Positions 4,515-56,872 of a DNA stretch of 64,000 bases are shown here, piece by piece. How positions within the stretch are numbered: position 1 is the stretch's first letter; each line of letters opens with the position of its first letter. Source of the stretch: a virus; the IMG/VR virus record IMGVR_UViG_3300002143_000235, positions 186,001 through 250,000 of that record; one strand, 5' to 3'. The position numbers were made by a program, and so were the translations under genes. The notes beneath the pieces are model-generated. The model saw only the letters and a list, made by a program, of their open reading frames with translations, was not told where the DNA came from and ran no database searches.

Positions 4515-6050
4515 TTAATAATGCTTTTTAACTTCTAAAAGAAATTCTATGTACTGTTGGCATACTTCTCTCATTGTTGTACCTGGTTCAAATCCAAACA
4601 TTGTATAAAATTCAGGCATAAGTGTTTCAGTATCGTAATGTTTCAACTGTATCTTCCACATTTCAATAGAAAAATCCATTGGATTTTTTATACTAGCTCT
4701 TGTTGTTGGACAAACAAATGGATAAATATATGGTACACGATGATTTTGACCCTTGTAACTTACAACAAGTCCTGAAGGATTATTATCTGTACCAAGTGCA
4801 AAGAAATCACGCGCATCTAATACCTCCATTGCACTATTTCCAGATGTGATAGATAATCGACCCAATACTTTTATAGCTGGATAACACGACATGAATAAGG
4901 ATTCAACCATATCCATTGTTCTGCCTGTAAAAATATCATCATCATATAGATAGACTTCATTAAATTCATTAGCTATCTTAATTGTTTGTTCATGTAGTGC
5001 TGGTGTGCCAGGTCTATTATTATAACCTAATTTACGCTGTCCAAATGCATCATATACACGAGATATAGAAATCTTATGCGGATGATCACAATATTCATCT
5101 AAAACAACACACTTATCTAAAATGTGTTCAAGTGGAACGTAATCATTTAGTTTATATGTATTTGCACTTTCATTTAACCAAACTGCTGAGAATGATTTAT
5201 TTAAAAGATTAATAACATCATTATCACGTTCAGTTATTCTATTTGCATGTTTATTAGTTAAACTAACACGTAATTGAACTTGATCAGCAAGTGTGTGTTT
5301 AAATCCATTCTTTCTAATTTCAGTAGATGAAATTATATTTTTTGTATCTTCAGCAACGTATACATTTTTAAGATTTTCGTATATACCAATACGATCACTA
5401 TATCCAGGTCTACCAGCAATAACCGTTCCATATTTATCATCACCTTTATAGTACATAAAAGCTTGCGCAAATCGTGCATTATCAGCACCCCAAACCATAA
5501 AGATTGTGATATCTTCAGGTTGTTGATACCATTTATTTATGTATTGTCGTAGTCTATATGCAACAGTTGTAAAATTAACTGCACCTGGTGCAAATACACC
5601 TTCCCATGGATCAATTGCAAGCCATTTATAATCACGAATAAGTGACGTAGCATATTGTATACGTTGACCAATAGGAATCCATTGATCACCAGTTTTTTGT
5701 TTGATGTATTCGTCATGTCCTGGTGACAAATATCCACCCAATACATGGTAACCACTCTCAGTCAATTTTTTCTTAGCTGATTCCATCATATCGATATGTC
5801 CTTGATGCATTGGACAATGTGCACCAGTCGACAAAAGAATACATCGTTTTTTTTTGATAGTATCTAATGTACCTTGTGCTTCGTTATGTGATAAGAATTG
5901 AATAGGTGTACATGGAATATCAGTATGAGCACGATAGTTGATATTCCATTGATTTGTGTCTTCAAAATAACCGGCACTATCTAAAAGTGTCTGATCTGGA
6001 AAATCCTTATAAAAAGGTTCCATTGCTAGTTTGTGTTGATTGAATTGCAT
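4515..6050 (-). CDS. NMNAT-like nucleotidyltransferase fused to phosphoribosyltransferase-like domain, 511 aa
   Basis: Two domains are visible. Residues about 66-255 form a HIGH-type nucleotidyltransferase: LLSTGAHCPMHQGHIDMM holds the H-x-GH motif (about 82-85), VWGADNARF fits the nucleotide-binding GxD loop (about 187-195), and IISSTEIRKNG (about 239-249) is the ISSTxIR motif of NMN/NaMN adenylyltransferases. Residues about 310-450 contain VYLYDDDIFTGRTMDM (about 366-381), matching the PRPP loop of type I phosphoribosyltransferases (hydrophobics, two acids, then TGxT). Inference: it makes an NAD-type dinucleotide and handles a ribose-phosphate substrate in one polypeptide. The gene overlaps by one base with the tRNA-binding protein gene upstream. 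The fusion is uncommon; the PRTase part could have lost activity or bind PRPP/nucleotide only for regulation. Confidence 0.75.
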   Translation of the reverse strand: MQFNQHKLAMEPFYKDFPDQTLLDSAGYFEDTNQWNINYRAHTDIPCTPIQFLSHNEAQGTLDTIKKKRCILLSTGAHCPMHQGHIDMMESAKKKLTESGYHVLGGYLSPGHDEYIKQKTGDQWIPIGQRIQYATSLIRDYKWLAIDPWEGVFAPGAVNFTTVAYRLRQYINKWYQQPEDITIFMVWGADNARFAQAFMYYKGDDKYGTVIAGRPGYSDRIGIYENLKNVYVAEDTKNIISSTEIRKNGFKHTLADQVQLRVSLTNKHANRITERDNDVINLLNKSFSAVWLNESANTYKLNDYVPLEHILDKCVVLDEYCDHPHKISISRVYDAFGQRKLGYNNRPGTPALHEQTIKIANEFNEVYLYDDDIFTGRTMDMVESLFMSCYPAIKVLGRLSITSGNSAMEVLDARDFFALGTDNNPSGLVVSYKGQNHRVPYIYPFVCPTTRASIKNPMDFSIEMWKIQLKHYDTETLMPEFYTMFGFEPGTTMREVCQQYIEFLLEVKKHY

Positions 6051-7241: not shown

Positions 7242-7493
7242 TCAACAACGATATAAAATTTCACCATCTGGTTGATTAAAAGGTGGTTTCGTATAATGTT
7301 CAAGATCAGGTCCACTGTGAATATTGTTAAGATCTTCTTGGTGTTTTTCATCACCCATACTTGGATCTATTTCATGTTTGAAAACAAGTGCTAAGTGCTT
7401 TTTAATCATTTCTGTTTGATCTGGTCCAATATTTATTGGATTACTTATTTCAAAGTAGCCTTGAAGCCAATATGCGAAATCTCTTGAAGTCAT
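7242..7493 (-). CDS. hypothetical protein, 83 aa
   Basis: Begins MTSRDFAYWLQGYFEISNP and continues IGPDQTEMIKKHLALVFKH; this pattern is widespread in phages of many hosts (a small family with the FAYWLQGYFE start), but no function is known to me. It starts 38 nt after a rho-independent terminator, so it opens a new transcript. Confidence 0.65.
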   Translation of the reverse strand: MTSRDFAYWLQGYFEISNPINIGPDQTEMIKKHLALVFKHEIDPSMGDEKHQEDLNNIHSGPDLEHYTKPPFNQPDGEILYRC

Positions 7494-7530
7494 ATAGTTG
7501 TATTTTTTACAATTATACGTTTAAAAAATG

Positions 7531-7556
7531 AAAAAGCCTGATTACTCAGGCTTTTT
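7531..7556 (-). terminator. rho-independent terminator after the zinc-ribbon gene
   Basis: AAAAAGCCTGA / TCAGGCTTTTT form an 11-bp stem with a 4-nt loop, directly after the stop codon of the gene ending at 7558. The stem is GC-rich relative to its surroundings and is flanked by T-runs on the - strand. Confidence 0.8.
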
Positions 7557-7557
7557 C

Positions 7558-8589
7558 TTATATTTTAGTTCCACAGCTTGCACAGAAGTTGTCTGTTTTT
7601 TTTGCTTTCTTACCACATCCAGTGCAATGTCTTACCAAATCTTTGACTTCAATTGGTTTAGTCGACATCGGTAAAATCTTAAATTCAGATTTACTTTTCA
7701 TTAAAAATTCAAAATCAATCTGAACTTCAGTAAATTCAGTATCCGATTTTTCACCTTCTCCAACAATTCCTGTCTCAAATAATTTACATTCACTGTCTAT
7801 ACTTTTGAGAGATGTTTCATCACTTAAATTAGACATACTAAACATTGTAAGATCATCAGTAGTTACATCAGAGCTGTAGAAACAATTTACAGTTGATTGT
7901 CCAATAATATCATTTGCTGATTTGCTGCGTAGCACATCCCAAGTATTAGAATAGTCACCAGCAAATCTAAATCTCTGTTTAGGCGCTTCGTATTTTGGTT
8001 TGCTTTTCTTGTAGAATTCTACTTCGATAGAACCATTGTTCTTGATTGCTTCCATTACAATTTCACCTAAAGATTCATCAACTTCATAAGTAGTGAATAC
8101 AAATTTATTGTTGTTGTCAATGTAACGATCTAAATAAATACGTTGACCTGGATACAATACAAGATGGCTTTGAGAGATGTACTCACCATTGATTTTGAAT
8201 TTTGCACCGTATGTGTCAGTTGATGGATTAAAAAGTTCAATCTCAAATTCATCACCGTCATTCATATAAACAGTTGCATTTAAAATATTACAATCATTAT
8301 TAAATCCACCGCCACTATTGTAACGTTTTAATTTGTTCTTATTAACTGTAATATCAGCATAAGGGCGTTTAAATCTAAAATCGTAAGAAGATGTTGTACT
8401 AGTTGGTTGTTCAGGAACCGGAATAAAAATAGGTTGAATTACTGGAGCGTTGTAAGGTGGATAATCCCACCACTGATAATCACTAATCCATGGATTAGGT
8501 CTCCATGTCCAGTCTGTTTGCCAATACCCAGAAGTTGGATAATAGAAATTGTTGTAGCATGCCGCTACATAGTTTGTTTCGGCTTTCAT
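7558..8589 (-). CDS. hypothetical protein with C-terminal zinc ribbon, 343 aa
   Basis: The last 25 residues hold CTGCGKKAKKTDNFCASCG, a two-knuckle (CxxC...CxxC) zinc ribbon. The N-terminal 75 residues are rich in W, Y and P (low complexity, TDWTWRPNPWISDYQWWDYP), and the centre looks beta-rich (DGDEFEIELFNPSTDTYG; YPGQRIYLDRY). Placed between a terminator and the giant tail protein gene, with a late-type box (ATATATAC, 8685-8692) about 95 nt upstream. It may be a minor virion or assembly protein; no specific function can be assigned. Confidence 0.6.
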   Translation of the reverse strand: MKAETNYVAACYNNFYYPTSGYWQTDWTWRPNPWISDYQWWDYPPYNAPVIQPIFIPVPEQPTSTTSSYDFRFKRPYADITVNKNKLKRYNSGGGFNNDCNILNATVYMNDGDEFEIELFNPSTDTYGAKFKINGEYISQSHLVLYPGQRIYLDRYIDNNNKFVFTTYEVDESLGEIVMEAIKNNGSIEVEFYKKSKPKYEAPKQRFRFAGDYSNTWDVLRSKSANDIIGQSTVNCFYSSDVTTDDLTMFSMSNLSDETSLKSIDSECKLFETGIVGEGEKSDTEFTEVQIDFEFLMKSKSEFKILPMSTKPIEVKDLVRHCTGCGKKAKKTDNFCASCGTKI

Positions 8590-8721: not shown

Positions 8722-11700
8722 TTAAAGTATTCCAAAAGTTCCTGATCTGAAGTGTCCATTGGTCCAGTGTCCAGCAGCAAAAGTTCCAGCTAAGAACACA
8801 CCATTCAACCAGATTCCTCCGTTCCAGTTACCATTAAATGTAGCTGCAAGTATTGGAGATCCTGATGGTGTATTTGTAGCAACATTTTCAACAACATACG
8901 ATGGCTCAATAAATAATGAAGTAATATCATCTAATACCATAGTAGTATTTGATGCAGATCCTGGTAGATAGTCTTTTGCGATGTATGCTGCTGTTGTTTC
9001 CATATCACATACATTTACAAATAATTCTTCAGCAAGTAAATTACCAGGAGCTGTAGGTGTTGCAATCATATAAAATTCATTAACATACAATGCTTGATTA
9101 TGCGCAATATTCGATTGATATTCAGCTAATCCTGTAAGCCCTAAAATAGAATCAAACTGTGTTGGATTAAGTGTTAGCTGTACTTGATTTGAAACTAATT
9201 GTGCAAGTGTAGCATTATATCCACCAAACCAAACCCCATTATTCCATGTTGCAGCATTAAAAATACCAGATACAAAACTTCCTGATGTAAATGTTCCAGA
9301 TGTAAATGTTCCAGAATAGAAAATAGAACTGTTGTGTGCATTATCACCTGTCATAAATTCACCGCCAATAAAACGACCCGTACGCCAGATAGCACGTGTT
9401 CTGTAACTTGGACCCTGTGTTGAACCAACACCAAAACGTGCTGGATTTCCAGGAGACAGTTCATCAAGAACACCATCTTTCCAAAGACCTGTTTCAAAAT
9501 CACCACCAGTGAATAACCCATCATCCCAAACGACATGTTTAATTATTCCACTATTAAATGTACCAATTTTCCAAGTACCATCAATAATAATACCATCGTT
9601 AAATGTTCCATCTATCCAAGTAATATAAGTAGCAATTCCACCATTCCAGGTACCATTTACCCAAGTACCATCATCCCATGTTGATAATAGGTGATTATTT
9701 TGATTATTGTACGTTATATAAATATTGTTGTCTTGAATACCATAAGCATTGTGTGTACCATTCATCCATGTACCGCTCATCCAGTGACCTTGAATCCAAA
9801 TACCGTCACACCATACGCCTTGTACCCAAGTACCTGTATACCATATTAAATCACCAGTTCCTGGTCCAAATTCTTGTGTACAACCCACAACAGCATTTTC
9901 AGTAATAACAGTATCAGCTAAAATCCACGCATATTGTCCTTGACCATTAATATTGTTAAGTATATTGAATTGTGTAAGACCATCAATAAAACGAATTGAA
10001 TAAATGTTATTTATACCTGGTTGAATTATTACAATTCCTTCTTCATTCTCGGCCATATCATATTTAGCATTGATAAGTTTGAATGGTTGTGTTGCATTAT
10101 CAACACCAAGTTTAGCGATACCTACAGGTCTAAGTGTTAAACGTGGATCTTTTTTACGTCTATATGTTTTCTGCTGAAATAATATTCCACCTTTTGGACT
10201 TGGAAGTGATACAAATGTGTCATCAATTAATCTCCAATAAGTATTTGGTTGTGGGTTTGGATATAGAATTAATGGATTTCCTGGTCCATCAAAAATATAA
10301 ACACCATTTTCATTATTTACTGTTTGATTATTTAAAATTATTACATCTCCAATATTAGGAGGAGTTCCATTAAGTGTTACTGGTGCACTTAAAATATTAA
10401 TATTAATTGACATAAAATATGATACATCAACAATTGGATCTTCATCAAAATTAAAATACCTGTCACGTTTAAAAAATTTTACACGCGGTTCACCAAATTC
10501 TTTAAACATTAAACCAGTAAATCTATTAAAAATACCATCTTTTTGATCTTCAGCGCGTGATAGCATATGTGCAAAATTAACTGTATCAATATTATATGGT
10601 GGATATGCTGTTGTTAATGGTGAATATGATTCATTTGGATATGCAATGTTTGCTTGTTCAATAATAGACGAAATATCAGATATAGATAAATCAAGTGTAA
10701 ATTTCATAAAAATTGTATTTGCAACTAATGGTACAAATGTCAATGTATAAACAGTTACTATCTCACCATCATCTTCAATCTTTTCAATAAATACATAAGC
10801 TGAAGATGGCGATAAAGGTGGTGAATGAAATGCAACATATGTGTCAGTTTTAAGTGAATCTAATACAGTTTCTCTGTGATTTTTACCAAATTTAATAATA
10901 CTACCAAATGTATTTAAACCAATTGTACCTTTAGGATTTGGTAAAATTACACACATATCATCATCTTCAACTGTATGTGATTGAAAAATCACACTACCTT
11001 CACGAGCATTGTAATCAGTAATATCAAGGTAATTAGTATGTTTACTAATATTGTATCCAGGTTCATATAAATTATATTGATTACCAGGAATATTTCTTTC
11101 ATGTAAAATATCAATAGTTCCAGAGCCGTAATTAATTGACGTAGTGTGATTTAAGTAAACATATTTTGACATACGTATACCATTAAGTTGCACTTCAGTT
11201 GTACCAGCATTTACATCAGATAAAAAATTAAAATTATACAATTTTCCAACCGGCGTTTGATTTAACATTTTTATGAATGATTTAATGGTTGGTCCAACAT
11301 TTAAACCATCAGTATTATCATAAAAATTAACAAGAGTCATAGTCATTTCCCAGACGTGATCTGATCCATAATCCATTGCAACCAACTCATTATACATATT
11401 TGTATCAAACATTGGAAAAACTGTAATATCTGCAACTATATTATTCATCACATAATCAGTAATGAGATGTAATTGATCGTACATATAAACAGCATCGCTA
11501 GTACCTTGTTGTTTGGTTATTTGAACACGTACAGCACTTCCTGTTGCGTTATATGAAACAGGAAATTTATATTGATTTGGTTCGTAAAGAAACTGTAGTT
11601 GTGTTGTATTATTAGGTTCATCTTGAGTCAGTAAAAACTGATTTATTTGATTTGAAAATACTGGACTAAGTGATTCATACAGATCCAAGTATACAGGTTG

Positions 11701-32039: not shown

Positions 32040-32576
32040 TTAAAAAAGTGTTTGTTTTGTTACTATTTTTGTTATCTCTCTGAATGCCTTTTCCTTATTG
32101 AAGAGATTCACAATTGGAATATCATAATCCTTAGCAATACGCATTGCTTGACTTGTTCCACCAGATTCTTTTCCTTCAGGTGTCCAACAAATGATCAACT
32201 CAACCGGTGTATTTAAATTTTCACCTAATACCTGATAACTATTTCTAGCCATCAATTTCTTTGCTGCATCTGAAAGTCTATCCCAAGCTGGATGATACTT
32301 TTCAGCTAATTCAAACGCTTCTGGTGTGAGATTGTAAAGTGGTGATGTATTTCCATTGAAACCTTTCCAAGGAAGATAAATTTCATTTGGAAAATTGTTG
32401 TTCTCCATGTTGTTTAATTTCTCAAACAACGTATCAGCTCCTGGTGCACCACCAGATCGTAAAACAAATCCATTCTTGTACATATAACTAGTAACAAGAT
32501 AAATGTCATTGTATAACGAGTCAGGCCCTTGTTTTGTTGGGGCCTGACGTGAACCGATACCAGCATAGTATCGCAT
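32040..32576 (-). CDS. SLOG-type Rossmann protein (DprA/LOG-like), 178 aa
   Basis: Start set at ATG 32574-32576 (MRYYAGIGSRQAPTKQG), as it follows the previous stop by 4 nt. SLOG domain features: YAGIGSRQAP near the start, VLRSGGAPGADTLFE (about 41-55), and a late ELIICWTPEGKESGGTSQAM (about 135-155), where GGTSQAM fits the family's GGT-x-x-x nucleotide-binding turn. Such phage proteins form one branch of the SLOG superfamily, whose members bind or sense nucleotide-derived signals such as NAD or ADP-ribose products. Its ligand is unknown; the sirtuin gene is two genes upstream. Confidence 0.78.
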   Translation of the reverse strand: MRYYAGIGSRQAPTKQGPDSLYNDIYLVTSYMYKNGFVLRSGGAPGADTLFEKLNNMENNNFPNEIYLPWKGFNGNTSPLYNLTPEAFELAEKYHPAWDRLSDAAKKLMARNSYQVLGENLNTPVELIICWTPEGKESGGTSQAMRIAKDYDIPIVNLFNKEKAFREITKIVTKQTLF

Positions 32577-32580
32577 GTTT

Positions 32581-32892
32581 TTAGTTTCCGTAAACGGAAC
32601 CATCCGGTTGCGTAACACCGAAAGCTGATAAACTGTAAATTACAGTTGCGGTATTCAATGGATTATTTGTAATATTTACACTGAATTTTTTTTCACGAAC
32701 TTCAAAGTTTAATGCCAAAAAATTCAATGCTGATGACGGTCCCATTTCAACAAGTGTTTTATCATTAATTTGAAACTGTGGATCGTCCGCAAGAACAACT
32801 TCTTGTGTTATAGTACTGAATTCTGCTTGTGCTCCAGGTGCAGCTGGATAAGCTGGATTTGCTGTCACAAGTTGTAAAATAGCTGATGCCAT
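32581..32892 (-). CDS. hypothetical protein, 103 aa
   Basis: Not recognised. Alanine/proline-rich start (MASAILQLVTANPAYPAAPG), then a beta-sandwich-like body (VSINITNNP-type strands), ending TQPDGSVYGN. The composition is like a small virion decoration or head protein rather than an enzyme, but this is only an impression. Confidence 0.5.
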   Translation of the reverse strand: MASAILQLVTANPAYPAAPGAQAEFSTITQEVVLADDPQFQINDKTLVEMGPSSALNFLALNFEVREKKFSVNITNNPLNTATVIYSLSAFGVTQPDGSVYGN

Positions 32893-32912: not shown

Positions 32913-33416
32913 TTACTTAATTGTGTTTACCATAAATGTTGAATAAAAAGTCTCAATATCTTTGATAGCTTTATTCAACAATTTTGGATTATCATATATT
33001 GTTGTGTACATGTTCATTGCATCTACTTTTTTTGTAACAATGAACATTCGTGAGAAGTAACCTGGTAATAAAAATCTGCTTTTACTAGGCAAGATATTCA
33101 TTACATCTTGTGTAGTGGATAGTGGAATTCCAACCACAACATCATCAAGAACATATGCAACAACTACTGGTCGTGATTTGAATCCAACAAATTCAATATA
33201 AACATCACCTTTTTTTAATTTAGATGGTTTACGTGTTTGAGTTCGATGTTGTTCAAACAATGTATTCATATAATGTTCGATATCACCTTTTCCAAGAAGT
33301 GATGGAGCATTAAGTGATTCATCCATTTCATTTAAGTACTCCAGCAATTGTTTTTTATTAAACGATGGTCTGGTGTCGGCTGACGCTTTTATTAATATGT
33401 CTGCTTTAGTTGCCAT
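32913..33416 (-). CDS. hypothetical protein, 167 aa
   Basis: Not recognised. Lysine-rich, with a helical N-terminus (FNKKQLLEYLNEMDESLN) and a central strand-turn region (KKGDVYIEFVGFKSRPVVVA). Start overlaps the sirtuin stop by 11 nt, so the two are co-expressed. Confidence 0.55.
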   Translation of the reverse strand: MATKADILIKASADTRPSFNKKQLLEYLNEMDESLNAPSLLGKGDIEHYMNTLFEQHRTQTRKPSKLKKGDVYIEFVGFKSRPVVVAYVLDDVVVGIPLSTTQDVMNILPSKSRFLLPGYFSRMFIVTKKVDAMNMYTTIYDNPKLLNKAIKDIETFYSTFMVNTIK

Positions 33417-34116
33417 TACTTATTTTTTTAAGGTACTCATCAAGTTTTTTAACACCATCAACAGCACTAGCAATGATTTTTGTAAATTCAAGTGTCACCG
33501 CAATAAATTTTGCACTTAGATCAATAATAAATTTCGGTACGTCAACTTCAGCTTCTTCCCATAATCCCGCGGCTGGGTAGACTTTGAGTGATGTTCCAAT
33601 GATAACAACGATGTCAGCAGTTTTCATTATAGCCGCAGCTTTTGGATAATTTGGTACATCTTCTCCAAACCATACAATGTTAGGACGAAGTCTGAATCCA
33701 TGTTCACACTTATCTTCAGCTGTTAATTCCCATTTATCAAGATCATGAATAGCTTTAGATTTTGCGGTGGCTTCACTTTTAGCTTGCATGATGTTTCCAT
33801 GAAGATGTAATACATTTGTAGATCCTGCACGTTCATGTAAATTATCAACATTTTGTGTAATAACTTGCACATCATATCGATCTTCAAGACTTGCTAAATA
33901 TCTGTGTGCATCATTTGGCTCTACTTCCATACATTGTTTACGACGTTCATTGTAGAAGCGTGTGACAAGATCTGGATTCTTATTCCAACCTTTCGGTGTT
34001 GCTACAGTTTGAATATCATGGTTTTCCCAGGTTCCGTTACTGTCACGGAATGTTGAGATACCAGATTCAGCTGATATTCCAGCACCTGTGAGTATTACTA
34101 TTCGTTTTTTCATCAA
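33406..34116 (-). CDS. cobB: sirtuin: NAD-dependent protein deacylase (CobB/class III type), 236 aa
   Basis: Removes acyl groups from lysines, using NAD+ and releasing nicotinamide and O-acyl-ADP-ribose. Seen: GAGISAESG (11-19), FRDSNGTW (23-30), QNVDNLHERAG (89-99), catalytic HLHG (His106), RPNIVWFGE (144-152) and GTSLKVYPAAGL (174-185). The Y-x-x-R motif (YNER, 55-58) that gives class III enzymes their preference for succinyl/malonyl lysine is present. The zinc module is reduced to one Cys (DKCEHG), as in many Bacteroidota homologues, which points to acquisition from the host. It overlaps both neighbours and is linked by theme to the NAD+ genes elsewhere. Confidence 0.9.
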   Translation of the reverse strand: MMKKRIVILTGAGISAESGISTFRDSNGTWENHDIQTVATPKGWNKNPDLVTRFYNERRKQCMEVEPNDAHRYLASLEDRYDVQVITQNVDNLHERAGSTNVLHLHGNIMQAKSEATAKSKAIHDLDKWELTAEDKCEHGFRLRPNIVWFGEDVPNYPKAAAIMKTADIVVIIGTSLKVYPAAGLWEEAEVDVPKFIIDLSAKFIAVTLEFTKIIASAVDGVKKLDEYLKKISNGN

Positions 34117-46240: not shown

Positions 46241-47668
46241 TTAAGCTGTCATAGCAGCTTTTACATCTTCGTAAGTCGTTATTGTTCGAATTACACCATT
46301 AAAAAATCGACTCTTTAACAAATCTTCTTTTTCTACGGTATGTAACTCATTCAAATCTTTTTCAGAAAGTGTAACAATCTGATCATTGATCCGAAGTGTA
46401 TGTAAAATTCCTTTCTTAGATGCTTTACCTTTTGAAGTAATAGGATCTTTGTATACATCTATTTGTTTACCATCAACAATTGCAAAACTAGCCTTAATTG
46501 CAAACTTTAATGTATCACGGTTAAAAGATTGAAGAATACCACCACCAGATCCAAAGATAAAGTTATCAAGTGACCAACCAGCAGCTGTCAATTGTTCAAG
46601 AATTGTTTCCATTGATTTTACAGAAATTCCATCACCTTGAAGCAATTTAAGTTTTGGATTAATTGTTTTAAATCCTTTTTCATTAATAATAAATCCAAAT
46701 TTTTCAGCAAGAATCTCAAGACACATAAGAAGTACAGTTACTGGATCTCCTGAATCAGGACGAATAACAAATGTTCCAGGTCTTTCAAGAATCATTTCAC
46801 GAATGTCTTTCTCATCACTTAAAAAATGACAAACGTTTGCAATGTCATACGTATCTGATACCAATGATAGTGGTACGTTTTCGTAAATGGTTCCTTTTCC
46901 GTGTTTCTTGATAATTTGACGGTATGTTTCAATCTCATTGTCACGACCACGAACAGTCATAACCATGTGCTCAGATGCAGGTACTGAGAATCCACACATT
47001 GGTGCACCATAGTAATTCTGAAGCATTCTAATTCCAGCAATTGTATCAGATCCAGAAAATGAAAGAAGATGTGCAGCTCCTCCCAACCATGCTTGCTCCT
47101 CAGAAGCAACACCTCGGTAACCGAAGTCATGAAGCATGAAGTCTGTGTTTGCTGTGTCTCCAGAAATATCGTAATACTTGTTCAAAATACGTTTACCATA
47201 CATTGAATTTGTTGCAATTGTAATTGGATACCAAAGTTTCATCAAAAGTGTTTCAACCCAGTTAACTAACCAAACACATTTTTCATCAGTTGATCTAATT
47301 TTGAAAAGCATGTTCTTTGTTGGAATGACCATACCTTCATCAACTGAAAGAATCTCAATTGGAAGGAACCCGTTGTAACGTTCTAAAATGTAACGCCATC
47401 CTGCTTCGTTGAATACATTTTCTATACCGAAGTGTTCATTGTAGAATGCAACAGCTTCTTGAATCTTTTCTTCAGTTACTTGTTGACCAACAAGATACGA
47501 TTCCATGTAATATTGTAGTCCGAAGAATACAGTCTCAGAAAATTCTCCACCGCGTGATTCGCAGTAAGATTCCATATATGTGAGACCTTCAGGCAACATT
47601 GCGTGATGTGATGCCTTGTAGCTGTCCGTAGCCAGCATAATGTTCCAAAAACTTTGAAAGTGTTTCAT
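46241..47668 (-). CDS. nadV: nicotinamide phosphoribosyltransferase (NAMPT/NadV), 475 aa
   Basis: Joins nicotinamide to PRPP to make NMN, the first step of NAD+ salvage. Family landmarks: MLATDSYKASHHAMLPEG (11-28), MLHDFGYRGVAS (about 178-189) with the substrate-binding Asp, VPASEHMVM (about 229-237) with the catalytic His, FVIRPDSGDPV (300-310), LLQGDGIS (342-349) and FGSGGGILQ (372-380). Length is normal for the family. Phage NAMPT together with an NMN adenylyltransferase forms the pathway known as NARP2, shown to restore NAD+ after depletion by NADase defences. It sits alone between a terminator and small genes. Confidence 0.95.
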   Translation of the reverse strand: MKHFQSFWNIMLATDSYKASHHAMLPEGLTYMESYCESRGGEFSETVFFGLQYYMESYLVGQQVTEEKIQEAVAFYNEHFGIENVFNEAGWRYILERYNGFLPIEILSVDEGMVIPTKNMLFKIRSTDEKCVWLVNWVETLLMKLWYPITIATNSMYGKRILNKYYDISGDTANTDFMLHDFGYRGVASEEQAWLGGAAHLLSFSGSDTIAGIRMLQNYYGAPMCGFSVPASEHMVMTVRGRDNEIETYRQIIKKHGKGTIYENVPLSLVSDTYDIANVCHFLSDEKDIREMILERPGTFVIRPDSGDPVTVLLMCLEILAEKFGFIINEKGFKTINPKLKLLQGDGISVKSMETILEQLTAAGWSLDNFIFGSGGGILQSFNRDTLKFAIKASFAIVDGKQIDVYKDPITSKGKASKKGILHTLRINDQIVTLSEKDLNELHTVEKEDLLKSRFFNGVIRTITTYEDVKAAMTA

Positions 47669-49223: not shown

Positions 49224-50510
49224 TTAAATTCGAATTTTGTTTGCCACCTTACCATTTTCTAACGTAAAGTGTATCATACAATTAGTAGCATTCAACTCGT
49301 TAAATTTGTCCATATTAAAATGACCCACTGCTTCAGGTTTCGCACGGTAAGATGAACTCTTTTTTTCCATTCTAAATGTAGAACCGTAGATCACTTTATA
49401 GAACAATTCATTTAAATTATACTCTGGAGATGAATTGTCTATTTTAATGACATGACCATCAACAATCGTATAGGCATTTTGCAAATAGGCTGTGAATTTA
49501 TTTAGAAGAGTATAACGAGGATCTGGTTGTACGGTGTTTTGTCCATATGAATACACATAGTTATCTTTTACCTCTTGATACGCATACCATCTATAATAAA
49601 TACCATCAATCAACGTGATCATTTCATAATCTTCACGTTGCCAGTGATTCGCTTCAGTTTTCAATTTACATACATGAGGTTCTGCTACAATTCCAGTTGT
49701 AGGACATCCAAAATCTGATTCTTTGTAAGCAACCAAAATATCAGCAAAACGTTCATCGATGTCTGGTCCTAAACACTGTGCAACTTTTGTAAATCCTGAT
49801 TCAGCTATAAACGGATTTCCCCATGACTCATTTAATTTTAATTCATCATTCGGATTTACAAAAATATGCATTTGTTTTCCGTTTGTATGATACGTGTTCC
49901 ACTGTTTACGCATACGTCCGTAGTCATCTTCAATCTTTTCAGATTTCCATGTCCAATTGTAATACATATGCCGTCCAAGGTACATCAATACTGAATCATC
50001 CTTCATCTTATAAAGACGACCAGGAACCATTGTATCCTTTGTAACCTTCATTGTCTGAAGACCAGTAAAGGCTGTGGATTTTTTATACTCCTCTGAATCA
50101 ACTGGAAGCAATACCAATTCTGGTCCGTCCCAAGCGTAGACAAATTTACCTTCAAGTCCTTTACCTTTTGTTGATGTACACTCTTGAAGAATGTAAAGCA
50201 AGTTCTCAATAGTAATTTCAAATTCAAAATTACGTGGATCAAATACACGAACTTTCTCACGACGCTGATTCCAATTCCATGAACTGTATCGAACCCCACC
50301 AACATTTCTATTAATGATGAAACCATCAGTTGGAACATTTTCAAACTCATCAGTCGGAATGTCTTTACTGCACCAACCAAGCCATGATGTCTCTTTACGA
50401 AGTTTTCCTTTCGGATCGTAATAGATCACATAAGCAAGTTTTTGTGTGTATGTATCTTGACGATTTTGATAACCGACTTTAAGTTTTCCGGGAATGATAA
50501 GTTTTTCCAT
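49224..50510 (-). CDS. hypothetical protein, paralogue of the 370-aa gene, 428 aa
   Basis: The first ~140 residues align closely with the gene at 51110: IPGKLKVGYQNRQDTYTQKL then VIYYDPKGKLRKETSWLGW, then FENVPTDGFIINRN and GKGLEGKFVYAWDGPELVLL. The C-terminal parts differ. It is beta-rich, with no signal peptide. Function unknown. Confidence 0.6.
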   Translation of the reverse strand: MEKLIIPGKLKVGYQNRQDTYTQKLAYVIYYDPKGKLRKETSWLGWCSKDIPTDEFENVPTDGFIINRNVGGVRYSSWNWNQRREKVRVFDPRNFEFEITIENLLYILQECTSTKGKGLEGKFVYAWDGPELVLLPVDSEEYKKSTAFTGLQTMKVTKDTMVPGRLYKMKDDSVLMYLGRHMYYNWTWKSEKIEDDYGRMRKQWNTYHTNGKQMHIFVNPNDELKLNESWGNPFIAESGFTKVAQCLGPDIDERFADILVAYKESDFGCPTTGIVAEPHVCKLKTEANHWQREDYEMITLIDGIYYRWYAYQEVKDNYVYSYGQNTVQPDPRYTLLNKFTAYLQNAYTIVDGHVIKIDNSSPEYNLNELFYKVIYGSTFRMEKKSSSYRAKPEAVGHFNMDKFNELNATNCMIHFTLENGKVANKIRI

Positions 50511-51109: not shown

Positions 51110-52222
51110 TTATTTTATTAATGCTATGTTATCAAGATCTTTTTTAGTTTTGATATAATAACTTTTAGTTTTAATTTTATTAAAGTCGTATTTCTTTTTA
51201 TCAATAACAATATTAAATGTACCTAAATGTGCTTTCATTTTGTTATTTCTCAATAGTTCCTTTAAAATTTCTTTTTCAACTTTTGATAATGATTTAAATT
51301 GACCATCAATTTTTGATGCTGATGTAATTTCAATATACCTTGAACCGTATGAATAATATTCAAACATGATATCATTGTTAATACCTTCATACATTCCTTT
51401 CTTAACAAACCAAACCTTATTTGAATTGCGTTCACTATTTGAACACGTATAAAGATGATCAACTATTTTATAATCTGGATTTTCTACAATAGCTGAATGA
51501 ATGCTTTCAGTGTATTTAACAGCAATATCAGCGTAATCATCTGATATAATATCACTAATACAAGATCCGACATCAGCAATTCCATTTTTGCTTTCAAACT
51601 TTTTATCTACAGTATTATAAAAGACATCTTTTACTGACATATCAATATCACCATAATTAATATTTGTAAAAGAAATACGGCCCATATAAATAAGTGGATT
51701 TGCATTCTTATCTTTTTTATATGTGTACATACCACCAACAACCATTGTCTTGCGATCAATTTTAACAGATTGTTTTGTTGTAAACTCAACAGATTTTTTA
51801 TAATCTTCTGACGTTACAGATAATAAAACAAGATCTGCTCCATTCCAACCATACACAAATTCACCCTCCAAACCTTTTCCTGGTGTACATCCAACATGAG
51901 AAAGAATAAAGAGAAGATTTGGAATACTGATTTCAAATTCAAAACCTCTAGGATCCCACACACGTACGAATTCAGCACGTGCATTCCAGTAGTAATAATC
52001 ACGTGTTCCTCCACCATTACGATTTAAAATGAATCCTGAGGTAGGAACATTTTGAAACTCATCATCACCAAGATCTTTGTTTCTCCATCCTTGCCAAGAC
52101 GGCTCTTTACGTAATTTTCCTTTTTCATCATAGTATATGACATAAGCCAATTTATCTGTATAGGTATCGGATCGTTTCTGATATCCTACTTTCAATGTTG
52201 TTGGTATAAATAATACATTCAT
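51110..52222 (-). CDS. hypothetical protein, paralogue of the 428-aa gene, 370 aa
   Basis: N-terminal half like the gene at 49224 (LKVGYQKRSDTYTDKLAYVI; FQNVPTSGFILNRN; GKGLEGEFVYGWNGADLVLL). The C-terminal half is lysine-rich and diverged. The next gene upstream (frame-disrupted, 52436-52722) begins with a related motif. Function unknown. Confidence 0.6.
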   Translation of the reverse strand: MNVLFIPTTLKVGYQKRSDTYTDKLAYVIYYDEKGKLRKEPSWQGWRNKDLGDDEFQNVPTSGFILNRNGGGTRDYYYWNARAEFVRVWDPRGFEFEISIPNLLFILSHVGCTPGKGLEGEFVYGWNGADLVLLSVTSEDYKKSVEFTTKQSVKIDRKTMVVGGMYTYKKDKNANPLIYMGRISFTNINYGDIDMSVKDVFYNTVDKKFESKNGIADVGSCISDIISDDYADIAVKYTESIHSAIVENPDYKIVDHLYTCSNSERNSNKVWFVKKGMYEGINNDIMFEYYSYGSRYIEITSASKIDGQFKSLSKVEKEILKELLRNNKMKAHLGTFNIVIDKKKYDFNKIKTKSYYIKTKKDLDNIALIK

Positions 52223-52741: not shown

Positions 52742-54133
52742 TTAGATATAATAATTTTTTAGTCTGCTCAAGTAATCTTCATCATGTTGAAGTTGTGTTA
52801 AACCTTCTTTAGATTGAATTGCTTCACGAATTACCGTAGATGACACATGACGATTATATGTAATATCTAAACACTTAACATTTGCTAACAAAAGATTAAT
52901 ATGAAAAATATTACCAGGACGATCAAAATATATAAATGATGTTTTTCTCCATTTCACATTAAATAATGTAGCCTGGTTGTATGTAGCATGTTCATCTACA
53001 TGTTCATCATTTAAGAATCGATTGATTGTATCACCACCCATCATGTAACGAAGTATGTGTTGATCTGTAAAATCTGAATTCTCTGTAAATGATTTGTAAG
53101 ATGAACTGTAATAACCATCAGAGTCAATAATTACATCATAACCATAAGAATGAATCAACATAATGCGTTTGAGCATATTGTCAACAGCAATGTCTCTATT
53201 CTTTCCTGTATCTCTATTTGATAACGAGATTGCAAGTACAACTTTAGTTTCAGGAAATTCTTCTTCAATTTTGTAGATCATTTCCAAGTGTCCTGGATGA
53301 ATTGGATTAAAACTTCCTTTAAAAACTGTAATGTCTTTGTTCGAACGAATCAGATCATTCAATCGTGTCAATTTTGCATTGGTAGCAAATACAACACTTG
53401 ACGCTAATAATGAATCAGATTGACTTCGTTGCATCATTGTTGCAAGTGTTTTTCTAGCTAATTGATCTTTTACATCTACACGCACATCATCGATGAAGCG
53501 ATTAGTAAATTTCTTATGGTCTCCACGTGTTGCAATGATCTCCAATCCAATACCAGCAATAATTTCCAACTGGTGTCTACGAACTACATAAACTGGAATA
53601 GTATAGTGAAAGTAATACAATTGGTCATTAATAATGTCATAGTAACCAAACCATCCATGACTACAAACATCTTTTGTATTCGCTATTTGAATACTGTTGA
53701 CAAGAATGTAATCAACTGGTAATGTACCAGACTTACGGATTTCTTCAATTTGATCCAAGATATCAATCTCTTTAGAACGAAGCTCAACAGTTTTTTCATA
53801 ATCAGATGCTTTGACAGCATTCAACTTTTCAGTACGAATACTATTCAAAGCACTATTAATTTCTTGACTATTTGGAAGTAATTCATTGAAATGATAATTC
53901 AACATGTTCTGACAAACCTCTGGTGATACTGCACGTACATCCTTATGTTTGTACTTTGCTTGAGCGTATTCCCAACTATTTGGTGATTCTGAATAGTAGA
54001 CAAGTTTTGATGCCGTATTTGGAAACTGACAAAGTGTATTGTAGACTGGTGAACCACCACCAACTTCAATGATGATACCATAAGATCCGTTAGATCGTAT
54101 TTCGTTGATTATTTTTTCGTGAATGTCATTCAT
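52742..54133 (-). CDS. CinA-like / UVR-like / NMNAT-like three-part protein, 463 aa
   Basis: C-terminal part (about 265-445): TVFKGSFNPIHPGHLEMIYK with the GSFNPxHxGH motif (273-282), MGGDTINRF (about 365-373) and HVSSTVIREAI (429-439), the hallmark ISSTxxR-type end of NMN/NaMN adenylyltransferases. N-terminal part (about 15-65): IIIEVGGGSPVYNTLCQFP followed by the Y-x-E-x-P-x-S strand, resembling the C-terminal CinA/PncC (NMN deamidase) fold. Between them, LNAVKASDYEKTVELRSKEI (about 104-123) looks like a UVR helical hairpin. With NAMPT it would complete NAD+ salvage. The CinA part may lack activity. Confidence 0.78.
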   Translation of the reverse strand: MNDIHEKIINEIRSNGSYGIIIEVGGGSPVYNTLCQFPNTASKLVYYSESPNSWEYAQAKYKHKDVRAVSPEVCQNMLNYHFNELLPNSQEINSALNSIRTEKLNAVKASDYEKTVELRSKEIDILDQIEEIRKSGTLPVDYILVNSIQIANTKDVCSHGWFGYYDIINDQLYYFHYTIPVYVVRRHQLEIIAGIGLEIIATRGDHKKFTNRFIDDVRVDVKDQLARKTLATMMQRSQSDSLLASSVVFATNAKLTRLNDLIRSNKDITVFKGSFNPIHPGHLEMIYKIEEEFPETKVVLAISLSNRDTGKNRDIAVDNMLKRIMLIHSYGYDVIIDSDGYYSSSYKSFTENSDFTDQHILRYMMGGDTINRFLNDEHVDEHATYNQATLFNVKWRKTSFIYFDRPGNIFHINLLLANVKCLDITYNRHVSSTVIREAIQSKEGLTQLQHDEDYLSRLKNYYI

Positions 54134-55471: not shown

Positions 55472-56872
55472 ATGAACAATCATTTCGACAACTTGGTATT
55501 GGATCGTAGTAAGGATGGATTGACCCCAAACGAGGTTGATTATCTTGACACACTTTCAGATGAAGAAATCCAGGCACTGATCGGTGAATGCAACCGAAAC
55601 TACAACTATTATAATGCTGTTCAAACAGGATTAAAACTTATCTTGAACTCTATTTATGGAGCTTTTGGTAATGAATTCTTTGTTTGTTCAACCGTTGACA
55701 TTGCTGGTGGAATTACAGCAATGTGTCGTGATACCATTCGATTTATGGATACACTCAATGAATCTTATTGGTATGATTATTGGCATGAAGATCAGAATCT
55801 TCATGCACATTTAGGAATTAAAGATGTGAATCCAATTGACAATCGTTGGAAATCACGACCTACAGTCAACCAACCATTTGTTGATATTGAAGAACATGAA
55901 ATTAAAGAGTTGTTGAATGGACAAGACATCAACGAACTAGTTATTGAAGGTCTCTTCCAACGAAGAGTATCTGTTTCAAATTATGTGGATACCGATTCAT
56001 TATTTGTTTGTTTTGAACCAGCAATGCAAAGTTGTAACTGGGAAGGAAGCCCACAAGAATTTATTGAGAAAGTTGCTAAGTATAGACTTGAACCATTATT
56101 CAAGAAAAAACTTCAAGGATATGCAAGAAAATACAATGTTGATAATATACAGGATTTTGAACTTGAAAATATTAATGAATCAGTTTTATTTGTTGGTAAA
56201 AAAATGTACATCAAGCATACAATATGGGAAGATGAATCACAATATGAAAGATTGAAAAATATTGTACCTAAAGGTGTAGCATTGATCAAGAAAGGTACAC
56301 CTAAGTTTGCACGTGATAAGATCATGGATATTATCTTGTATATCTTTGATCATGCTGATTCATACAACATTAAAGATATGCTTAAGTTTGTGCGTGATCT
56401 TCGTAAAGAATTTGAGTTAACTAATATCGATGACATTTGTCCAAGTGCTAATATTAAAGATATTTGGACTCAAGGAAAAATAATGGTTCTTGATAAGAAA
56501 ACTGGTGAAAATATTATGATTGATGGACCAGGTGTTGTATCAGATAAAGAAGAATTGATATTCGCTAAAGGTACATACTGGACAAGAAAAGCTGCAGGAC
56601 TTTATAATCACCTCTTGCACAAGCATCCAGATCTTCAAAATCTTTATCCATTTATAACTGATGGAACAAAAGTAAAAATTTATCCTACATCACATGAGTT
56701 GAATAATAAATTTTGTTACCAATTAGGATTGTATCCAAATGAATTTGCACCACCTGTTGATTATGCAGAGCTTTTTGAAAAAACTGTTACAGATCAGGTG
56801 AATGTATATGTGAAAGCTCTTGGACTTCCAGAACTTAATAAAAGGCTTGCCGTAATTGTTTCATTATTTTAA
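55472..56872 (+). CDS. family B DNA polymerase, C-terminal (palm/thumb) part only, 466 aa
   Basis: Contains motif B GLKLILNSIYGAFGNEF (K55, N59, Y62-G63), motif C YVDTDSLFV (DTDS 173-176) and KKMYIKH (about 246-252, the K-K-x-Y block), then thumb sequence and a C-terminal RLAVIVSLF like the sliding-clamp peptide of T4 gp43. The exonuclease domain and motif A are missing; nothing on the + strand upstream encodes them, so this is the second half of a split polymerase. About 50 extra residues lie between motifs B and C relative to T4 gp43. The first 45 residues (LTPNEVDYLDTLSDEEIQAL) resemble a linker before the fingers helix. The N-terminal half must be elsewhere in the genome. Confidence 0.85.
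   Translation: MNNHFDNLVLDRSKDGLTPNEVDYLDTLSDEEIQALIGECNRNYNYYNAVQTGLKLILNSIYGAFGNEFFVCSTVDIAGGITAMCRDTIRFMDTLNESYWYDYWHEDQNLHAHLGIKDVNPIDNRWKSRPTVNQPFVDIEEHEIKELLNGQDINELVIEGLFQRRVSVSNYVDTDSLFVCFEPAMQSCNWEGSPQEFIEKVAKYRLEPLFKKKLQGYARKYNVDNIQDFELENINESVLFVGKKMYIKHTIWEDESQYERLKNIVPKGVALIKKGTPKFARDKIMDIILYIFDHADSYNIKDMLKFVRDLRKEFELTNIDDICPSANIKDIWTQGKIMVLDKKTGENIMIDGPGVVSDKEELIFAKGTYWTRKAAGLYNHLLHKHPDLQNLYPFITDGTKVKIYPTSHELNNKFCYQLGLYPNEFAPPVDYAELFEKTVTDQVNVYVKALGLPELNKRLAVIVSLF

Follow-up and report, generated by a model that had tools for sequence, protein, structure and literature searches.

A phage protein combining a CinA/PncC-like domain with an NMNAT-like adenylyltransferase domain, and its relatives in bacteria and other phages

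Rebuilding of NAD+ by phages is an active topic in counter-defence. Passages of two surveys of phage NAD+ synthesis (PMC9503650, PMC7824862) describe nicotinamide phosphoribosyltransferase (Nampt, NadV) together with either NadM, a nucleotidyltransferase (NTase) joined to a Nudix domain, or NadR, an NTase joined to a kinase; a CinA-like partner is not mentioned in these passages. In the CinA/PncC family of NMN deamidases, the S31A and K63A variants of AtCinA are inactive, Lys63 is needed in both published PncC mechanisms, and the phosphate of NMN is held by R145, Y58, and S48 (PMC5384747). Other lineages are known to have non-functional CinA domains that carry a replacement of S31 or K63 (PMC3855486). 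A literature search for a CinA-NMNAT fusion found no description of such a protein.

The window analyzed here (64,000 nucleotides, bases 186001 to 250000 of a 313,708-bp [313.7-kb] virus record) encodes a protein that combines the two folds (Table 1). Its frame is continuous and its two-domain layout is common to its relatives, and an artefact of gene fusion or reading frame was rejected on these grounds. The fusion is real, and structure models bear out the assignment of its N-terminal part to the CinA/PncC fold. The domain order proposed in the earlier note, a CinA-like part followed by a UVR-like hairpin and an NMNAT-like domain, is correct.

Table 1. Fusion gene, its parts, and the Nampt gene in the window
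Feature	Coordinates	Strand	Evidence
CinA-like + NMNAT-like fusion protein (P0001), 463 aa	52742..54133	-	Uninterrupted frame; Pfam, fold, relatives
CinA/PncC-like domain part 1, residues 1-88	53870..54133	-	VIA match to 2a9s; V24 and A57 positions
Helical-hairpin insert (UVR-like shape), residues 89-135	53729..53869	-	AF2 helices; missing from nine aligned relatives
CinA/PncC-like domain part 2, residues 136-207, HGW motif and R185	53513..53728	-	Alignments, VIA match
Interdomain linker, residues 208-264	53342..53512	-	Lies between two structural matches
NadD/NMNAT-like adenylyltransferase domain, residues 265-463	52745..53341	-	PF01467, TIGR00482 (below cut-off), VIA
GSFNPIHPGH active-site motif, residues 273-282	53288..53317	-	Invariant positions in alignments A1 and A5
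SSTVIR motif, residues 431-436	52826..52843	-	S431 and S432 invariant in A1
Nampt (nicotinamide phosphoribosyltransferase), probable partner in the pathway	46241..47668	-	NAMPT_N 118.7 bits, NAPRTase 153 bits

A Pfam search of the fusion protein reported CTP_transf_like alone (residues 270-437), and PF02464 had no match in this protein or anywhere in its genome. PF02464 matched one close phage relative at 7.2e-5 (G003, in the frame of L132), and its cut-off was exceeded by another relative, G016. A profile of the cellular relatives matched residues 1-260 of the fusion protein with an E value of 4e-5 (Z = 1), the best of 200 shuffled sequences reaching 0.006. With hhalign, the phage clade matched the cellular CinA-like domain at 97.8% (E 9e-13, 150 columns) and the cellular domain matched PncC at 95.7% (E 1e-8). 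Compared directly, the profiles of the phage clade and of PncC gave 6.4%, which is not significant, so the link between them passes via the cellular family and the fold. The earlier note had made its reading hinge on a structural match of the N terminus to CinA/PncC, and such a match was found: an AF2 model built on a phage-only alignment (A5, ten phage proteins; mean pLDDT 74) aligned by VIA-align over residues 1-205 to 2a9s_B, the NMN deamidase of A. tumefaciens, with Z 15.0 and an rmsd of 2.6 over 147 residues. The predicted CinA/PncC fold spans residues 1-207. An earlier AF2 model, based on the alignment with cellular proteins (A1), had given Z 10.5 to CinA crystal structures and 12.5 for the NTase domain; its middle part was poor because A1 sets the hairpin wrongly against the TASLAT residues of the cellular proteins, which A5 corrects.

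Direct searches with the fusion protein found no relative in viral contigs or phages, and their sole plasmid match was a ClpC, over the hairpin only. A genome scan with the pattern PGASxTxxExxxPY, a motif of CinA-like proteins fused to nucleotidyltransferases, matched at least 118 cellular loci. At least 71 full-length cellular proteins of ∼355 to 470 residues, a length that fits two domains, are among the matches listed, where the remaining cellular loci represent stand-alone CinA-like proteins, truncated copies, and outliers. All 34 cellular proteins in alignment A1 carry both domains. Cellular N-terminal domains matched the Pfam CinA model at E < 1 in 30 of 30 cases tested (best 7.5e-7), and the top PDB match of the cellular N-terminal profile was CinA (E 0.04). 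The phage relatives were retrieved with an alignment of the fusion protein and the cellular proteins. The closest one found, L185, is 38% identical over residues 9-452; identities to the fusion protein in the phage clade (ten proteins) are 22-43%. The clade forms one supported group (100/99) on a long branch, to be read with the caution that long branches call for. At least 21 further viral records have the fusion architecture, and a 360-aa phage protein in BFVD, whose sole annotation is cytidyltransferase-like, gives a full-length match. The CinA-like plus NMNAT architecture is widespread in bacteria and is also found in other phages, which the earlier note had not seen; nor had it seen the association with Nampt in phages.

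Several viral loci show variations on this layout. In L154, a CinA-like protein of 181 aa (7412-7954) and an NMNAT-like protein of 190 aa (7968-8537) are encoded by adjacent separate genes with Nampt downstream; this pair is a natural split form of the fusion. In L131 (∼8800-9200), the fusion frame is open for 279 aa and the remainder of the NMNAT domain is read in another frame, owing to a sequencing error or a frameshift. L136 (∼7300-7800) encodes, immediately upstream of its fusion gene, a Nudix-like protein (GGFIDPELDG...REASEEL) that recalls the Nudix partners of the NadM type. Other matches were rejected. The mega-phage matches L007 to L009 seemed to be relatives; L007 is a stand-alone CoaD, judging from its RGLRNG motif. 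Three matches from the first viral retrieval (L140, L141, and L157) were read as HD plus CoaD-like proteins and removed from the family. The record that contains the window encodes a similar 358-aa protein (∼275482-276558, plus strand; L010:871-1947), whose N-terminal half is HD-like and whose C-terminal half resembles phosphopantetheine adenylyltransferase (CoaD; RGLRNG motif), beside a DHFR-like gene.

Active-site residues were mapped through a joint alignment that included five PncC/CinA proteins, E. coli PncC among them. The nucleophile S31 of AtCinA corresponds to V24 in the fusion protein, the general base K63 to A57, and the oxyanion residue G106 to Asn. At the phosphate site, R145 and S48 are kept as R185 and S42, and Tyr58 is replaced by N52. 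None of the 137 aligned members (115 cellular, 22 viral) has Lys at the K63 position, and the R145 position is occupied by Arg in 112 of 112 members from cells and 20 of 22 from phages. S48 is kept in 21 and Y58 in 19 of the 22 members of the phage set, which was retrieved mostly through the NTase motif; conservation of these two residues in the cellular set is partly imposed by the search pattern. Because K63 is never Lys while R145 is kept, the CinA domain is read as deamidase-dead and possibly ligand-binding: judging from these residues, it is unlikely to be a working NMN deamidase, and sensing or binding of NMN is possible because R185 and S42 are kept. The switch between amidated and deamidated routes through NMN deamidation, as suggested in the earlier note, is not supported; its observation was right and its proposed mechanism is probably wrong.

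An active N-terminal NMN deamidase would feed NaMN to a NadD-type domain, and the resulting NaAD would then be amidated by NadE of the host or the phage. Such an arrangement would agree with the CinA/PncC fold, with the NadD models scoring best, with the T or S found at the S31 position of most cellular members, and with the presence of NAD synthetase (NadE) in 4 of 23 records, that of the closest relative (G020) among them; in these records a NaMN route may be open. It is nevertheless very improbable, given that the required Lys63 is missing from all 137 family members aligned (K63A being inactive; PMC5384747), that S31 and G106 are replaced as well, that deamidation of the NMN made by a neighboring Nampt would be wasteful, and that in several cellular genomes the family's CinA-like gene is accompanied by a genuine, separate CinA/PncC. 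No NAD synthetase was found in the record of the window, so a deamidated route there would depend on that of the host.

The phage clade has a residue set of its own: E23, R67, S70, Q149, H159-G-W161, and H176 are invariant or nearly so in the ten phage proteins, their low identity to P0001 notwithstanding. E23 lies at the position of the PncC active-site residue E30, and S158/H159 lie at and beside that of G120. With these residues, the domain might have been rebuilt into a different pyridine- or purine-nucleotide enzyme. This appears unlikely, since the set comes from ten sequences only, the polar residues in it may be kept for binding or for contacts within a dimer, and no known enzyme was found to have the same set.

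The insert that splits the CinA-like domain is predicted to form two helices (residues 89-108 and 112-135; mean pLDDT ∼80-84 in AF2), and it agrees in shape and size with the UVR motif, a helical hairpin of ∼35-45 residues. It scored below the cut-off of PF02151 (UVR; E 0.041, 14.1 bits against 21.5) and matched ClpC proteins with E values of 0.025 to 0.055 (0.8 for the plasmid ClpC). Of the UVR-like hairpin described in the earlier note, the shape is retained in the AF2 model, and the UVR identity is weak by sequence. The insert is missing from all nine phage relatives aligned in A5 and from the cellular CinA-like plus NTase fusions. Another sequence with an identical Nampt (L002) ends short of the fusion gene; the hairpin, known from one sequence, appears to be private to this phage. 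A role for it is offered by a tentative and rather doubtful reading, in which the family consists of pseudo-deamidases whose CinA domain, keeping the NMN-phosphate pocket, senses NMN or NaMN (or acts on it through a rebuilt activity) and controls the fused adenylyltransferase, in which phages have combined this module with Nampt into a third kind of unit for rebuilding NAD+, and in which the hairpin would be a protein-docking element of the UVR/ClpC type.

The C-terminal domain exceeded the cut-off of PF01467 (CTP_transf_like; E 1.2e-8, 35.7 bits against 21). TIGR00482, the NadD equivalog, gave E 6e-7 and 29.7 bits, below its cut-off of 112.45; none of the specific NadD/NMNAT models of NCBIfam reached cut-off, and its nucleotidyltransferase models agree with an NTase. 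Residues 265-463 aligned by VIA-align to the NadD structures 2h29/5vir with Z 13.8, and NadD/NMNAT structures took the top NTase ranks in the fold comparison, with PPAT lower. The HxGH and SSTxxR motifs are intact, and G273, F275, P277, H279, and H282 are invariant in A1 and A5. The NMNAT-like catalytic domain recognized earlier at the C terminus is thus upheld by both the Pfam score and the best-matching folds. That the best NCBIfam model, below its cut-off, is the NaMN-specific NadD counts against a firm preference for NMN over NaMN. Neither a Nudix nor a P-loop kinase domain was found in the fusion protein, where Pfam saw PF01467 only and the partner is CinA-like.

The Nampt encoded in the window is of the PRPP type, with a GSGGG..NRD clamp of the Nampt type and without the Namat motif that marks NARP1. 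With such a clamp, the enzyme should yield NMN, a product that requires an NMNAT. It lies 5 kb downstream of the fusion gene, on the same strand, with six genes between, among them two phrog_2475 paralogues (49224-50510 and 51110-52222, minus strand; E ∼1e-68 each). In L185, the fusion gene is followed after 458 bp by the orthologous Nampt (62.6% identical). Nampt is found within ∼2.2 kb at 13 of 22 viral fusion loci versus 1 of 36 control loci (Fisher 1.8e-6), the controls being other viral CTP_transf loci obtained in those retrievals. In L132, L135, L152, and L187, the two genes overlap slightly or lie 3-11 bp apart. Whole records encode Nampt in 17 of 23 cases, the six without it being records of 17-102 kb. 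No Nampt was seen near the cellular fusion genes, in loci of up to 8 kb each. Linkage specifically with Nampt, together with the ranking of NMNAT/NadD structures above PPAT, makes it distinctly improbable that the substrate adenylylated by the domain is neither NMN nor NaMN and that the linkage reflects general clustering of nucleotide metabolism, even though the HIGH-type NTase superfamily is broad, specific NMNAT models stayed below cut-off, and the phage has another NMNAT-like protein.

That second protein (4515-6050, minus strand) has GAHCPMHQGH, GADN.., and SSTEIR motifs, and its C-terminal half contains a PRPP-binding-like stretch, VYLYDDDIFTGRT; CTP_transf_like is the only Pfam entry over cut-off. 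From its sequence, it is possibly an NTase-phosphoribosyltransferase fusion. Other products of the window include a Sir2-family protein (33406-34116, minus strand; 149.8 bits), encoded by the same phage as the NAD+ salvage genes, and a DprA-like protein (32040-32618, minus strand; phrog_768). A separate ORF (55472-56872, plus strand) encodes the C-terminal portion of a DNA polymerase of family B, with its nearest matches (32-39% identity) in metagenomic phages of 634-735 kb.

The fusion protein probably represents the NMNAT arm of an NARP2-type phage salvage pathway, with the CinA domain deamidase-dead and likely serving as a regulatory module for dimerization and ligand binding. Nampt would convert nicotinamide and PRPP to NMN, which the C-terminal domain would adenylylate to NAD+; the rebuilt NAD+ might help the phage when that of the host is consumed or depleted by defence. 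The CinA-fold domain, which keeps part of the nucleotide-phosphate pocket, would probably dimerize and bind the substrate or the product. Against this salvage reading stand the 5 kb and six genes between the fusion gene and Nampt in the window, the second NMNAT-like protein, which could be the true partner of Nampt, the NaMN-type NadD as best NCBIfam model, and the NAD synthetase found in 4 of 23 records, that of G020 included.

The closest known counterparts of the phage protein are the cellular CinA-like plus cytidylyltransferase-like fusions of Planctomycetes, Gammaproteobacteria (SAR86), and Chloroflexi (L013 to L130), which have the same domains in the same order and a similar length. Like the phage protein, they have lost the PncC Lys and carry the HxGH and SSTxxR motifs, but they share only 15-22% identity with it, mostly have T/S at the S31 position, and differ in their clade-specific residues. 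Annotation by domain names misses the fusion architecture because Pfam rarely detects its CinA part. The NMN deamidase PncC/CinA (2a9s, E. coli PncC) shares with the phage protein the fold over residues 1-207 and the phosphate-binding Arg and Ser; in contrast, the phage domain has lost the nucleophile Ser and the base Lys, falls below Pfam detection, is fused to an NTase, and carries the hairpin insert. NadD/NMNAT enzymes have the NTase fold and motifs in common with it, whereas the phage protein reaches the cut-off of no equivalog model and has an extra N-terminal CinA-like domain. How a deamidase fold that keeps its phosphate site and lacks the catalytic lysine affects the attached NAD-making enzyme is the question that this arrangement poses. 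NARP1 (Adps and Namat; PMC12774641) likewise rebuilds NAD+ in phages with an enzyme of the Nampt family, but the Nampt of the window is without the Namat clamp motif, and its NMN route needs an NMNAT. NARP2-type salvage (NadV with NadM or NadR), as described in passages of the surveys PMC9503650 and PMC7824862, similarly joins Nampt and an NMN adenylyltransferase in large phages. The NTase of the phage fusion is attached to a CinA-like domain rather than to the Nudix domain of NadM or the P-loop kinase of NadR, and on the best reading the fusion adds a third NMNAT architecture to these two in phages.
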